Counted from the first letter of the stretch, positions 18,792 through 26,117 are shown. The stretch is DNA of 35,615 bases from Candidatus Nomurabacteria bacterium (GCA_026395995.1 JAPLXQ010000009.1:1-35615); one strand, 5' to 3'. Translations and numbers: made by a program. Notes: a model not told the origin generated them from the sequence alone.

Positions 18792-19541
18792 TTAAAGCAA
18801 AATTGCTATAGATTCCATAAGCATTTTGGTGCTTGAACCTGGTTGACGGAGGTATTCACGAACACTGAAAATTTGCTCTATTACTTTCTCCCTCTCCTTA
18901 CTAAGGAGAGGGTCGGGGTGAGGTTCTTTTGTATTTGAAATTATTACTTCTAAAGCTGAAAGGAATTTCAAAGCTTTGGCTCGTGGTGAGTCAGTGTTTA
19001 CTCCCTCTCCTTTCAGGAGAGGGTCGGGGTGAGGTTCTTCCTCTTCATCCTTCCCTTTCACTAATTCTTTAATATATTCGAGACGGGCAGACAAATTCAT
19101 CTTGATGAATTTGTCTGCTTCTTTTATTTCATCCCCTGTTTCAGATTTCAGAGAAATAAAATAAGTTCTAGAAAGAATAGTCGGTAAAAAAACTTCTTTA
19201 TCTGGAGTTATTAAAAAGAAATGTGTATTTATTTTTGGTTCTTCAAAAATCTTGAGTAAAGTATTTTGTGCATTATGTAAAAAATTATTTGCAGAAACAA
19301 TGAAAATTCTTTTTGTATTTAAATCATTGGAAAAACTTTTTTGATTAGCTGAAGATTTAAAATTCTCAGCATCTTCCATTTTAAAAGTATCGACAGATAT
19401 ATTATAAAAATCAGGATTAGCAATAGTCCCTACATTTATCTCTTCTAAAAAAGAAAAAAGTAGAGGTAAGATATCATTCTTATTCCCTTCTATTAAATAC
19501 GCATGATGTAAGTTTTCTTTATTTAAATACTTTTTTAACAT
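18792..19541 (-). CDS. holB: DNA polymerase III delta'-like subunit
   Basis: AYLIEGN..., NNFLHNAQNTLLKIFEEPKINTHFFLITPDKEVFLPTILSRT. Confidence 0.85.
   Translation of the reverse strand: MLKKYLNKENLHHAYLIEGNKNDILPLLFSFLEEINVGTIANPDFYNISVDTFKMEDAENFKSSANQKSFSNDLNTKRIFIVSANNFLHNAQNTLLKIFEEPKINTHFFLITPDKEVFLPTILSRTYFISLKSETGDEIKEADKFIKMNLSARLEYIKELVKGKDEEEEPHPDPLLKGEGVNTDSPRAKALKFLSALEVIISNTKEPHPDPLLSKEREKVIEQIFSVREYLRQPGSSTKMLMESIAILL
18888..18926 (-). repeat. Palindromic coding repeat copy 1 (EPHPDPLLSKERE)
   Basis: Minus strand GAACCTCACCCCGACCCTCTCCTTAGTAAGGAGAGGGAG, in frame in holB. Confidence 0.85.
19001..19037 (-). repeat. Palindromic coding repeat copy 2 (EPHPDPLLKGEG)
   Basis: Minus strand GAACCTCACCCCGACCCTCTCCTGAAAGGAGAGGGAG, in frame in holB. 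Confidence 0.85.
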
Positions 19542-20643: not shown

Positions 20644-22617
20644 ATGAAAATAGTTACCGTAATTCCATTAACAAAAGGGATCTTTAAGGAAGATTTGACT
20701 TACTTTACAGCCAAGCCAGTACCTGATGGTAGTGTTGTCTCTATCCCGGTCCGAAATAAGACAATTCTTGGTATTGCTGTATCTTCAGAAGATGTTAGCC
20801 ACACAAAATCAGACATAAAAAATATGTCTTTCAATATTAGAAAAATTACTGAAGTAAAAGAACATTCTATTTTTTCAAATGAATTTTTATTTACTGGTAT
20901 TGAGATTAGTAAATATTTTGGATCACAAAAAGGCAGAACTCTTACAAGCTTATTGCCAGCTTCTTTTCGAGAAAATTATGATGAGATTGTAAAATACAAA
21001 AAAGAACCTCACTCCGACCCTCTCCTTATAAAGGAGAGGGAGAAAAAACTCAAACCCGAAAAATTACTTTTTCAATCTCCATTAGAAGACCGAATGATAT
21101 TTTATAAAACACTGATTCGAGGAAGCTTTGCAGAAAAAAAATCTGTCTTTATTGTACTACCGACTGAAAGTGATATAGATGATTTTAAGACGACACTAGG
21201 TCATGGTATAGAAAATTTTACCTTTAGTATTCATGGAGGTATGACAGCAAAAAGACAAGTGGATCAATTTAAAAAAATTACTACGACAGATCATCCTATA
21301 TTAATCTTTAGTACAACGCAGTTTTTATCTATACCACGAAATGATATAGGCACTATAGTAATAGAACACGAAAGTTCCAATTCTTATAAAATGTTCAACA
21401 GGCCATTTTTAGATCTTAGGGTTTTTGTAGAACTATTTGCTGAGAAAATTGGAGCAAAATTAATCCTTGCTGATATCTTGCTTCGTTTTGAAACAATCAA
21501 TAGAAAAGAAAAATTGGCTGAAGTTCGTCCCCTTTCATTTCGTTTTAATTTTGAAGGTAATATAGAAATAAAAAATCCAAACCCCACCCCCTCGCCTGAT
21601 AAGCACTCCCCCTTGGCAGGGGGAGAAAAAAGTGGATTCAAACTTTTTTCAAAAGAAAATTTAGAAGAAATAAGAAAAACTATAGAGAATAAAAAAAATG
21701 TCTTTGTTTTTTCTTTACGTAAAGGTTTAGCTACGATGACCGTCTGTCGAGATTGTACTACGACTATCATGTGTGATGAGTGTTCTTCTCCAGTCGTCTT
21801 GTATCTATCTGCTGATGGTAAGAAAAGAATGTTTGTCTGTAATCGTTGCGGTATACAAAAAGACCCACTCATGAAGTGCCCACATTGTGATAGCTGGAAT
21901 TTGACCCCCTTAGGTATCGGTACCGACACAGTCGAAGAAGAATTAAAAAAACAATTACCAAAAGTTAAAATATTTAAATTAGATAAAGAATCTGCAAAAA
22001 CAGAAAAAGGTGCAGAAAAAATAATTACCGATTTTGAAAATGAAAAAGGTGCCATTCTGATAGGTACCGAAATGGCCTTTTTCTATATAAAAGAAAAAGT
22101 AGATCTTTCTATTGTCGCTTCTTTTGATTCACTTTGGAGTATACCGAACTTCAAAATGAGTGAAAAAATTATTCACATAATTTTTTCACTCATTTCTATT
22201 ACTAAAAATACTATCTTAATCCAAACAAAAAATGAAAAAGATTCCGCTCTCACTGCTATCAAAAATGACAACCTTTTAAACTTTGTCCGAGAAGAATTAC
22301 AAGACAGAAAAAATCTAGAATATCCACCATTTAAACGCTTTATAAAAATTACTCATTTAGGAAACAAAGAAGACACCATTGTTACTAAAAAATACTTAGC
22401 AGAACTTTTTGCCGATTATGATGTAAAAATCTTCAGCGCCTTTGTCTCAAAAGTCAAAGGTCAATACGTCACTAATGCATTACTCAAACTCGATTTACAA
22501 AAATGGTCACTACCTCAAATAAACTCTAATTCACAAATAGACGAACATCTCCATAAAAAACTCTCTTCCCTACCGCCAGATTTCTCTATAAATGTAGACC
22601 CAGAAGATTTGTTATAA
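20644..22617 (+). CDS. priA: PriA-like primosomal protein lacking recognisable Walker motifs
   Basis: Zinc-binding region CRDCTTTIMCDEC...CNRCGIQKDPLMKCPHC and GIGTDTVEEELKKQLP are typical of PriA; helicase motifs I and II degenerate. Confidence 0.85.
   Translation: MKIVTVIPLTKGIFKEDLTYFTAKPVPDGSVVSIPVRNKTILGIAVSSEDVSHTKSDIKNMSFNIRKITEVKEHSIFSNEFLFTGIEISKYFGSQKGRTLTSLLPASFRENYDEIVKYKKEPHSDPLLIKEREKKLKPEKLLFQSPLEDRMIFYKTLIRGSFAEKKSVFIVLPTESDIDDFKTTLGHGIENFTFSIHGGMTAKRQVDQFKKITTTDHPILIFSTTQFLSIPRNDIGTIVIEHESSNSYKMFNRPFLDLRVFVELFAEKIGAKLILADILLRFETINRKEKLAEVRPLSFRFNFEGNIEIKNPNPTPSPDKHSPLAGGEKSGFKLFSKENLEEIRKTIENKKNVFVFSLRKGLATMTVCRDCTTTIMCDECSSPVVLYLSADGKKRMFVCNRCGIQKDPLMKCPHCDSWNLTPLGIGTDTVEEELKKQLPKVKIFKLDKESAKTEKGAEKIITDFENEKGAILIGTEMAFFYIKEKVDLSIVASFDSLWSIPNFKMSEKIIHIIFSLISITKNTILIQTKNEKDSALTAIKNDNLLNFVREELQDRKNLEYPPFKRFIKITHLGNKEDTIVTKKYLAELFADYDVKIFSAFVSKVKGQYVTNALLKLDLQKWSLPQINSNSQIDEHLHKKLSSLPPDFSINVDPEDLL
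21004..21042 (+). repeat. Palindromic coding repeat copy 3 (EPHSDPLLIKERE)
   Basis: GAACCTCACTCCGACCCTCTCCTTATAAAGGAGAGGGAG, in frame in priA. Confidence 0.85.
22154..22195. repeat. 42-nt perfect hairpin inside priA
   Basis: AAATGAGTGAAAAAATTAT-TCAC-ATAATTTTTTCACTCATTT. Confidence 0.9.
22597..22617 (+). repeat. 21-nt direct repeat, copy A (priA 3' end)
   Basis: GACCCAGAAGATTTGTTATAA, identical to 24272-24292. Confidence 0.9.
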
Positions 22618-22694
22618 TATACTTGACTTTTAAACTTATATATAGTATTTTATAGTCAGAAATAAAGCGTTACTAAAAAACAAAATAAAGACAA

Positions 22695-23483
22695 ATGGAA
22701 ACTAATGTGTTAAACATTGAGGACTTTGATAAAATCAAAGAAGCTTCAAAACAAAAATCTGCCAGAATATCAGCTTGGCAAAGTTATTATGAAAAACAAA
22801 AAATTATCACTGTAATCAGTAATAATGAAAAAGACCGGGAGTTGTTTAAAAATCTTTCTGAAAAAGTAGGAACAAATGAAAATAAAATTGCATTTATTGT
22901 CTTATTTCCTGTATCTTTTTTTCATCTCAATGACTTTAAGAGTAAAATAGAAAATGCAACTGCAAAATTTTATTTCTTAAAAAATGGAACCGTTATTGGA
23001 GACGAAAAAATAGCACTTAAAATCATTAACTTTGGAAGAGCATACAAAGAAATTGCTCAAAGAGTGACAGGGGTATATGTCAGTAATATTATTCCTGAAG
23101 TAAATGAAAAAGATTTACTTAGTGAAGAAGACGAGCAAAAGCTTACAGAAAAACTTGCTAAATTTGATGAAACACTGAATTTATGGATGGAGAAATTCAG
23201 AAAACTTCCAGCAGTTAACTCTGTAACTTTATATGATATGGAAAGTACTGACAGACTTGTTACCATCGAAATAAAAATAAACTTCCCTGACAAAGAATCC
23301 GCTGACTGGTATTGCTTAAATATTGGAGGTAAAATAGACCATCCTAATTGGGATTATGCAGGAGAGCCATCTACGCTATACGAAGAATGGTCAAAAGGTT
23401 CAAAAGTTAGTACATGGAAAGAACTTTATGACTCCTTAGTAGAGCTTTCAAATTTATACGTGAATGTACCACAACCACAATAG
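22695..23483 (+). CDS. hypothetical protein (262 aa)
   Basis: Intact ORF followed by a CCCCGAACCAATCGGGG terminator; no family recognised. Confidence 0.7.
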   Translation: METNVLNIEDFDKIKEASKQKSARISAWQSYYEKQKIITVISNNEKDRELFKNLSEKVGTNENKIAFIVLFPVSFFHLNDFKSKIENATAKFYFLKNGTVIGDEKIALKIINFGRAYKEIAQRVTGVYVSNIIPEVNEKDLLSEEDEQKLTEKLAKFDETLNLWMEKFRKLPAVNSVTLYDMESTDRLVTIEIKINFPDKESADWYCLNIGGKIDHPNWDYAGEPSTLYEEWSKGSKVSTWKELYDSLVELSNLYVNVPQPQ

Positions 23484-23487
23484 TACA

Positions 23488-23517
23488 ATCCCCGAACCAA
23501 TCGGGGATTTTTTATTT
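23488..23517 (+). terminator. Rho-independent terminator
   Basis: AATCCCCGAACCAATCGGGGATT followed by T run. Confidence 0.85.
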
Positions 23518-23531
23518 GCATTTATTATATT

Positions 23532-24270
23532 TACCCCACAGGATTATTACCCCACAGGATTATCCTATGTAGTTTGTATATCATTGTGATATACTCAATT
23601 TATGGGATATAGAAAACAAGATTTTGAAATTCATGAATATTACCACTTATATAACCGTGGTACAGAAAAACGTCGTATCTTTTTAGATAAAAAAGATTAT
23701 GAACATTTTTTGTATTTAATGTATGTTTGTAATTCTACTCGAAGTATAAAAACTAGAGATTTAGGAGATTTTTTTGATAGAGAAGAAACTATTGTTAATA
23801 TTGGATCATATTGTTTAATGCCAAACCACTTTCATATTTTAGTAAAAGAAAAGGTAGAAAATGGTATTTCATTATTTATGCGTAAATTATTAACAGCATA
23901 TGTAATGTATTTTAATCTTAAATATAAACGAACAGGAAGACTTTTTGAAAATACTTTCAAATCTTCACATGTCAGTAATGATCGTTATTTAAAGTATTTA
24001 TACACTTATATACATCTTAATCCAGCAAAATTAATTGATAAGGGTTGGAAGGAGAAACGTACAAAAAAAGTTTCTGAACTATTAGAATTTGTTTTTGATT
24101 ATAAGTATTCAAGTTTACTAGAATATGATAAGTCTGTTTTAGAGGTAAAAAGAAAAATTATTAATATAGAAGTTTTTCCTAAATATTTTGATAAAATTGA
24201 AGATCATAAAAATGAATTATTTGATTGGTTAACATTAAACAAATACCCCACAGGATAATCCTGTGGGGTA
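23532..24270 (+). mobile_element. RAYT/IS200-like unit with REP-like palindromic ends
   Basis: Left: tandem TACCCCACAGGATTAT x2; right: TACCCCACAGGAT-A-ATCCTGTGGGGTA; encloses a Y1 transposase. Confidence 0.8.
23602..24258 (+). CDS. REP-associated tyrosine (Y1, HUH) transposase
   Basis: YHLYNRGTEKRRIF, CLMPNHFHILVKE (HUH), AYVMYFNLKYKRTGRLFENTFKS, YLYTYIHLNPAK. Confidence 0.92.
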   Translation: MGYRKQDFEIHEYYHLYNRGTEKRRIFLDKKDYEHFLYLMYVCNSTRSIKTRDLGDFFDREETIVNIGSYCLMPNHFHILVKEKVENGISLFMRKLLTAYVMYFNLKYKRTGRLFENTFKSSHVSNDRYLKYLYTYIHLNPAKLIDKGWKEKRTKKVSELLEFVFDYKYSSLLEYDKSVLEVKRKIINIEVFPKYFDKIEDHKNELFDWLTLNKYPTG

Positions 24271-24271
24271 T

Positions 24272-24292
24272 GACCCAGAAGATTTGTTATAA
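24272..24292 (+). repeat. 21-nt direct repeat, copy B
   Basis: GACCCAGAAGATTTGTTATAA, identical to the priA 3' end. Confidence 0.9.
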
Positions 24293-24299
24293 AAATAAA

Positions 24300-24333
24300 A
24301 CACCGTACTTGTTATTAGGTACGGTGTTGTTCT
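24300..24333. terminator. Hairpin terminator
   Basis: ACACCGTAC-TTGTTATTAG-GTACGGTGT. Confidence 0.8.
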
Positions 24334-24337
24334 ATTT

Positions 24338-25738
24338 TCAGAACGGCAATTTATTATTATGATTTGATATTTGGATAGCTATCCAAATATCTATAGGACA
24401 ATCGTAATTAGAAAAAGAATTTAAATACGATTCGTACAATTTTGGAGAACGACTATTTATCGCTTTCGTCTTTTTGTATTCTGGAGTTTTATTCTCCCAA
24501 GATTCCTTTCTAATACCGATATCCATAAGCATTTCCCGCAATTCATATTGTTTTTCGTTCAACATTTGAGAAACTTCAAAAAGTTTTTGAAAATCTACCT
24601 CATCTTTTGCTGCCCATTTTTTAAGTGGCTCATCAAAACCATAACCTGCAATTTCAAATAGTTCAATCAAAAATTGAGGATTTTCATTTTCCTTCCCTAA
24701 AAATTTTTCAATATCTTTTCTTTTTTTGTCTGAGTCATCTTTACAAAATAGATAACCACGGCAGAAGTAAAAAATATCTATCTCTGAAGGACCACTTTCA
24801 TGTGTATGGTGTTGCCAATACATGTTTTTAACATGCCAGAATTTTTTAGCCAAAGAAATGCTCTTTTCTTTTAATTCAGAAAGTATGTCAAACATATCCT
24901 TAGCTTCTCCATGCATTGAATCAATAGAAAGAGAAAGTGACTTCATGATGATCATTAAATGATTCTCTAAATTCCCATTTGAATGAAAAGTAAAGTCTGG
25001 ATTTTGTTCAATGAATGTAGTAATCGAATCAAGCACCTGAGATATATCCGATTTTTTTAAATTATCGAAGTGAATTTTATTTTCGATATACTTAGTCATT
25101 ACCGATGGGTACCAACCGCTTTTTTGGCAAAGTCCCCATAATTCTTCATCATTTTTTGTATTTCTATTATCGAATTCTTTATTACACATTTCTACAAGGT
25201 AGAGGAAAGATTGTTTTACTTTTTTCTGATTTTCACTGGAAATTTTTCCTTCTCTTATAAAAGTTATAAAACTTCCCAGAAATTCAAAAGTTAATCTATT
25301 ATTTGCATTTAACAAAAACTCACAAAATCTTTCAAAAATATGTTGATAGAAAACCTCGTAAGTTCCTTTTTCAACTGATTTAAAGAAAACTCTAAGAACA
25401 AAGAGGTATTCATCGGAAATAAGTACTTCCGGACTTTTTTCGAGACCTTTTTGATAACGAAATTCGCTCATAAACAAATCAAAAGTACTTGGATTAATTA
25501 TGATAATTTCAGAAGTAAATAAAATTAATTTATCTGTCTCTGATAGATTATCATATTCTTTTACCACGCACCTAGACAATTCATTGTGAATTAATCCAAA
25601 TTGTTCATCAGAAAAATTTTTCTTTGGTTCTTTGAATTCTTCCCAAGAAAGAATTTTAATCAATGATTCTTTACTATTTTTAATATTTTCAAGCAAGTTA
25701 GAAACCATTCTATCGGAAAATAAAGTGAATTGTGACAT
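24338..25738 (-). CDS. hypothetical protein (466 aa)
   Basis: Long intact ORF; no family recognised. Confidence 0.75.
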   Translation of the reverse strand: MSQFTLFSDRMVSNLLENIKNSKESLIKILSWEEFKEPKKNFSDEQFGLIHNELSRCVVKEYDNLSETDKLILFTSEIIIINPSTFDLFMSEFRYQKGLEKSPEVLISDEYLFVLRVFFKSVEKGTYEVFYQHIFERFCEFLLNANNRLTFEFLGSFITFIREGKISSENQKKVKQSFLYLVEMCNKEFDNRNTKNDEELWGLCQKSGWYPSVMTKYIENKIHFDNLKKSDISQVLDSITTFIEQNPDFTFHSNGNLENHLMIIMKSLSLSIDSMHGEAKDMFDILSELKEKSISLAKKFWHVKNMYWQHHTHESGPSEIDIFYFCRGYLFCKDDSDKKRKDIEKFLGKENENPQFLIELFEIAGYGFDEPLKKWAAKDEVDFQKLFEVSQMLNEKQYELREMLMDIGIRKESWENKTPEYKKTKAINSRSPKLYESYLNSFSNYDCPIDIWIAIQISNHNNKLPF

Positions 25739-25871
25739 ATGTATATAATTTTTAAGGTTTTTTAAAAGATTATAACTTTAAAGAAGTTCTGTCAACCAAT
25801 ATTCGTCATAATTATATAAGGCACATAAAACCACTTGCTATAAATAAAAAATATGTTAAGCTATACACTAT

Positions 25872-26117
25872 ATGGCTAAACCAATTATAGAAGTTAAAAA
25901 GAACCCGAACGAGAACAATGCAAGTGTTCTACGTCGTTTTACTCGCAAGATTCAAGAATCTGGCATTATTTATAAAGTTAAAAATAATCGTTATAATGAA
26001 AGAGAAGAATCTAAAGTCAAAACCAAAGCCGCTGCTCTAAAAAGAATAAATAAAAGAAAGACAAATGAAAAACTCCGAAAGCTTGGTAAACTCGTAGTAA
26101 AGACTCGCGGAAGATAA
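25872..26117 (+). CDS. rpsU: 30S ribosomal protein S21
   Basis: Small basic protein VLRRFTRKIQESGIIYKVKNNRYNEREES...KKTKAAALKRINKRK-like layout. Confidence 0.85.
   Translation: MAKPIIEVKKNPNENNASVLRRFTRKIQESGIIYKVKNNRYNEREESKVKTKAAALKRINKRKTNEKLRKLGKLVVKTRGR

Follow-up and report, generated by a model that had tools for sequence, protein, structure and literature searches.

A putative serial gene-tail displacement array behind priA in a Candidatus Nomurabacteria genome

Islands carried by tyrosine integrases settle at the 3′ ends of genes, restore the 3′ end of their target and leave direct repeats. In the T6SS loci of Vibrio cholerae, effectors undergo sequential displacement, for which homology-facilitated illegitimate recombination (HFIR) has been proposed and which has been linked to the displacement of Rhs C-terminal (tip) regions (PMC5361080). 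Neisseria minimal mobile elements consist of whole-gene cassettes that lie between conserved genes and are exchanged by homologous recombination, with no mobility gene of their own (PMC3898611). The locus described here lies in a 35,615-nt stretch of Candidatus Nomurabacteria DNA (GCA_026395995.1 JAPLXQ010000009.1:1-35615), referred to below as the window, and is probably, though by no means surely, a serial gene-tail displacement array, in which incoming DNA would have brought a donor gene tail together with its cargo. A limited literature search found no description of gene-tail-duplicating cassette arrays behind housekeeping genes in Patescibacteria.

Three priA tails and two inserts between priA and rpsU

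The host gene priA (20644-22617, plus strand) encodes a 657-aa primosomal protein N′ with TIGR00595 and PRK05580 matches, and its 3′ end, which reads DPEDLL in orthologues, forms the insertion point. Tail copy 1 (22597-22617, plus strand) is coding and intact, comprising the codons for DPEDLL and the stop, while tail copy 2 (24272-24292, plus strand) is non-coding and exact, with its cut side against a REP. Both read GACCCAGAAGATTTGTTATAA, identical at 21/21 positions. A sequence-only reading of this DNA had reported the repeat, and it stands: with up to 3 mismatches allowed, GACCCAGAAGATTTGTTATAA matches the window at 2 places, where shuffles give an expectation of 0.00. The same reading had named recurrence of the 21-mer as an unrelated repeat as a possible objection; at the same tolerance, the 760,693-bp genome holds those two matches only. 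Because DPEDLL is kept in the priA genes of relatives, spelled there with other codons, it is the left copy that represents the original coding sequence.

Insert 1 (22618-24271, plus strand), the most priA-proximal, contains a promoter region, a 262-aa gene (22695-23483, plus strand), the terminator-like hairpin of that gene (23487-23509, plus strand) and a REP-RAYT-REP unit. The unit starts with a left REP region holding two direct copies of TTACCCCACAGGATTA (23531-23576, plus strand), continues with the 218-aa Y1/HUH transposase-like RAYT (23602-24258, plus strand) and ends in the right REP palindrome (24243-24271, plus strand). Tail copy 2 abuts this palindrome with a gap of 0 nt, not one nucleotide past it as had been stated. 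The Y1_Tnp domain matches PF01797 above cut-off (3.2e-7) and the HUH motif appears in the translation as MPNHFH, so that a Y1 domain with its motif is combined with flanking REP palindromes, as in a RAYT; the match to the NF047646 equivalog (2.3e-8, 34 bits) falls below its cut-off of 80. A PDB search with the RAYT returned no match. Throughout, palindromic repeats between RAYT ends are counted as REPs, not as duplications. In-frame PHPDPLLKGEG- or SPLAGGE-like peptides occur in priA itself, in the ORF at 18792-19541 and in a xer gene (L333), as though a palindromic repeat had entered coding genes.

The 262-aa protein has no convincing family match in Pfam or NCBIfam, and no homologues were found in viral contigs. 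Among 80 genomes of the genus it has one weak partial relative (G094, 41%, residues 22-126), which has no adjoining RAYT in the fetched stretch. A cargo family common to several loci was considered and rejected, the 262-aa, 227-aa and 215-aa cargo proteins having no detectable relationship.

Insert 2 (24293-25832, no strand assigned) is the older module and comprises a hairpin (24299-24328) and a 466-aa gene without known family (24338-25738, minus strand). It is followed on the plus strand by tail copy 3 (25833-25843), an 11-nt LL-stop remnant ACTTGCTATAA that the sequence-only reading had overlooked, by a 28-nt spacer (25844-25871) and by an rpsU-like gene (25872-26117). The key to this arrangement is genome G097, which has the closest priA among the 80 genus genomes (81% over the last 151 residues). 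There priA is followed by 28 nt, rpsU, ybeY and ftsA, and mreB lies upstream in both sequences; in the window, 3.2 kb of extra DNA separates rpsU, ybeY and ftsA from priA. G097 lacks insert 1, and it lacks insert 2 between priA and rpsU. Moreover, ACTTGCTATAA, of which the window has a single occurrence, shares the codon CTA with G097, unlike the present priA tail with its TTA, and aligning it with the spacer to GACTTGCTATAA and spacer of G097 gives a score of 43 against a shuffled maximum of 32. The remnant directly before rpsU is thus the native tail, followed by the native spacer, which brings the window to three tails and two inserts.

Two modules accordingly stand in series between priA and rpsU, the 262-aa gene with RAYT and tail copy, and the hairpin with the 466-aa gene and native remnant, each ending in a priA 3′ remnant and the native one last. 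The earlier proposal of one insertion behind the priA stop with a 21-nt duplication is correct in that the 262-aa gene and RAYT were inserted and the tail duplicated, but there are two modules and the 466-aa gene is the second insert. The empty-site relative that it predicted exists in G097 and supports insertion, although priA is followed there by rpsU instead of the hairpin near 24300. That hairpin is real; as the displaced original terminator of priA it is ruled out by the G097 order, and it belongs to insert 2.

Tail copies behind other housekeeping genes

RAYTs are numerous in the genus. The survey covers 140 fetched stretches around RAYT matches, some of them overlapping, with 142 RAYT ORFs, whose two sides were compared at the DNA level and by protein-level matching of gene tails. 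At six loci the tail copies across the RAYT score 47-128, whereas 2230 shuffled pairings reach 31 at most: priA in the window, ruvA in the same genome (L065), recR in G027 (L231), rpoD in G080 (L233) and G004 (L104), and a DEAD-box helicase gene in G033 (L223). Weaker recR cases occur in G009 (L074) and G030 (L225).

The ends of recR and rpoD were also searched in 60 genomes, with 1.94 Mb of fetched DNA scanned for tail copies, which are found at recR in 6/55 genomes and at rpoD in 3/55. A RAYT is present in about half of the recR and rpoD inserts of this gene-based sample. The recR insert of G025 is RAYT-free and carries a 143-aa gene, then a nucleotidyltransferase-like gene pair, with three tails; RAYT-free inserts with a PaaX-like gene lie behind rpoD in G035 and recR in G062. 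At recR of G035, four tails are interspersed with a HEPN-like gene, an inositol monophosphatase gene and a REP-RAYT-REP unit. The same architecture, with RAYT or without, thus recurs behind recR, rpoD, ruvA and a DEAD-box helicase gene in related species. Since about half of the recR and rpoD inserts are RAYT-free, the tail duplication cannot simply be put down to target-site duplication by a RAYT.

Unoccupied sites show what the inserts displaced. An empty recR site consists of recR, a terminator and the rplU tail, and in the occupied loci of G027 and G062 the remnant is followed by that terminator and the rplU tail. Likewise, the native sequence found downstream of rpoD in G018, G033 and G021 follows the remnant in G080. 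Relatives vary at the priA-rpsU, recR-rplU and rpoD loci, which stand empty in some and hold different inserts in others. That all this reflects assembly or binning errors, or a chance repeat, is scarcely credible: every genome is a draft assembly, but the same structure turns up at several genes and in numerous independent genomes, there is an orthologous empty site, and 0 chance matches are expected.

Several features of the cargo deserve separate mention. PaaX-like proteins adjoin rpoD in G035 (L295) and recR in G062 (L256), and are found at rpoD also in G024, G062 and G001 (L266, L267 and L275); the G035 copy matches PF20803, the PaaX Cas2-like domain. Palindromes flank the PaaX-like genes on one or both sides, resembling a second REP-like, transposase-free, palindrome-bounded unit. 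The nucleotidyltransferase-like and HEPN-like genes in the recR cargo of the G025 array (L294) and of G035 (L296) are possibly of toxin-antitoxin type.

If an integrase acted in trans on att sites at gene 3′ ends, in the manner of integrons or tRNA islands, site-specific integration would yield a classic pattern that these loci share, namely an element copy that restores the gene 3′ end, direct repeats serving as attL and attR, and serial arrays. We nevertheless regard this route as quite improbable. At least five unrelated target genes are involved, with unrelated tails and no shared core; repeat lengths and cut points differ even within recR; and the modules contain no integrase. There is no Phage_integrase match in the contig of the window, and the sole match in its genome (PF00589) is a tyrosine recombinase gene of Xer type located elsewhere. 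A site-specific integrase is therefore unlikely to be at work.

Allelic origin of the copies and proposed mechanism

Comparison of intact and displaced tails gives, as a raw count, 45/61 changed codons that are synonymous. A refined count omits two items in which trimming had kept non-homologous codons, the row for the window and a single boundary codon of L065; in it, 44/58 changed bases fall at the third position and 44/53 changed codons are synonymous. If the remnant is modelled as decaying neutrally once duplicated, P comes to about 4e-6 for third positions and 2e-10 for synonymous changes, both values being approximate because changes are treated as independent and copies from one genome are pooled. 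In addition, some remnants are closer to another species' recR tail than to that of their own gene (copies 2 and 3 of G035, copy 1 of G025). Since the copies differ mainly at synonymous positions, they are mostly alleles of different lineages, joined by the insertion. In the window itself allelic origin is not demonstrable, as priA copies 1 and 2 are identical. The excess identity of priA to G097 is about 0.15 and shrinks only to 0.09-0.10 in the final blocks, with another block equally low, a profile that hints at most weakly at replacement of the priA 3′ end by a foreign allele. A separate case, L207 in G061, has a 27-nt duplication of a gene start (MATFDEEK), not a gene end, around cargo and RAYT, and its remnant carries non-synonymous changes, i.e. 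neutral decay.

Should the Y1 transposase, alone or with a partner, duplicate about 20-70 nt of its target, the surviving insertions at gene ends would be those that spare the gene. REP ends abut the duplicated piece in every RAYT case, and by hand count non-palindromic repeats flank about 9/81 RAYTs against few of 635 control ORFs. In genome G004, two units of RAYT and cargo lie between repeats in divergent promoter regions. At the first (L077, contig C2), between proS and rpsB, a REP-bounded RAYT with a 227-aa cargo gene sits exactly between identical 21-nt copies, and relatives have a single-copy site, as seen between proS and rpsB in G011 (L154). Each L077 copy holds the -35 boxes of both divergent promoters, so that both genes keep their promoter. 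The second (L081) has 31-nt repeats before mraZ. Because the copies at both loci are non-coding, they give no means of judging allelic origin, and the two loci remain the best cases for a target-duplicating RAYT.

As an account of the tail copies, however, such target-site duplication is unlikely. The same duplications surround non-RAYT cargo; most RAYTs have none; lengths range from 18 to about 80 nt; and the IS200/IS605 family is stated to make no larger ones (PMC2817692). Furthermore, in RAYT units alone 25/30 changes are at third positions and 24/27 changed codons are synonymous, unlike post-insertion decay. The RAYT-free cases and the synonymous differences rule it out in pure form as a general explanation. 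Ordinary IS200/IS605-type transposition, which the sequence-only reading had already discounted, is not expected to yield a target duplication and is indeed not the explanation, given the 21 nt duplicated here and the duplications at other RAYTs and at non-RAYT inserts.

Two further observations concern RAYT surroundings. A DnaA-box-like TTATCCACA lies near several RAYT insertions and before mraZ (in the L081 repeat, upstream of the L104 RAYT, and at about 4900 in the window, upstream of mraZ). Locus L112 (G004:C3:96850-99759) contains a near-identical RAYT pair 2.3 kb apart, in an array of repeated peptidoglycan-binding-like gene ends.

Displacement by a donor tail and its cargo would proceed as follows. 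DNA from a related species, carrying its own version of the gene tail and then an accessory gene, would enter the cell, probably by competence. It would undergo homologous recombination on one side, within the 3′ part of the gene, and illegitimate joining on the other, a few tens of bases ahead of the former stop. The gene would thereby acquire an intact donor tail followed by cargo, and the old tail would persist as a remnant before the old downstream DNA. With each further event the array would grow, its newest module always adjoining the gene. The product would be the same if a circle of tail and cargo integrated by a single crossover. RAYT elements are a common cargo with precise REP ends and may help make the joining end. 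The allelic differences between tails agree with this scheme. The genome contains comEC, and competence works in Saccharibacteria (PMC10633639). An Escherichia coli study built to detect HFIR found partial-gene duplications via single crossover as the main outcome, so that partial-gene duplication in place of deletion is a documented result of one-sided homology experiments (PMC3240628). Against the mechanism, HFIR is reported to be rare and usually to delete recipient DNA (PMC3240628). Also counting against it, all nine RAYT cases have a REP no more than a few bases from the cut of the remnant, on its gene-body side, which is more precise than random illegitimate joining predicts; these exact junctions leave room for an active RAYT role.

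The exact REP junctions and the allelic differences could both be accounted for by two steps, in which a RAYT or foreign DNA breaks the gene tail and recombination with the intact gene of a relative later repairs it. Such a route presupposes that cells survive with priA, rpoD or ruvA truncated and that another event, partly non-homologous, follows every time, repeatedly so for arrays, and it is quite unlikely. A broader extension of displacement by donor tail and cargo is conceivable but rather doubtful: the 3′ ends of housekeeping genes in these Patescibacteria might be docking sites of an integrase-free cassette system, whose tail and cargo units would pass between species, dock via their tail copy and accumulate in arrays; RAYT, by cutting at REPs, would be among the agents that produce the units.

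Tail copies serve as a readable footprint of gene gain beside essential genes, which stay unbroken, in ultra-small Patescibacteria genomes. One sequence could give the insertion order, the donor lineage and the cargo, which includes HEPN and nucleotidyltransferase-like genes, PaaX-like regulators, enzymes and RAYTs. Duplications beside RAYTs, moreover, need not be target duplications made by the transposase.

Comparison with known systems

Tyrosine-integrase islands share with these loci both the restored 3′ end and the direct repeats, whereas the system described here has no integrase or common core and has many targets. Integron cassette arrays similarly grow beside an anchor with one repeat per cassette, but here the repeat is the host gene's own coding tail and there is no IntI, the sole integrase type found being Xer. 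RAYT/TnpA-REP relatives of IS200/IS605 share the Y1 domain, the flanking REP palindromes and the occurrence as single copies between genes; known members make no larger target duplications (PMC2817692), whereas several here lie within tail-duplicating inserts.

Neisseria minimal mobile elements likewise place different whole-gene cassettes between two conserved genes, as seen at priA-rpsU, recR-rplU and rpoD. Their definition, however, includes neither a duplicated 3′ end per cassette nor serial tail arrays, and here the RAYT is a frequent cargo. In the T6SS arrays of V. cholerae, one end receives new modules from other strains and old ones are displaced down the array, as is proposed here. 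There a variable toxin gene forms the anchor, and a different allele or an immunity gene is what gets displaced, while here conserved housekeeping genes act as anchors, their product stays the same, and what is displaced is a short non-coding remnant of the tail. The loci are best read as known sequential displacement in a new form, behind housekeeping genes.
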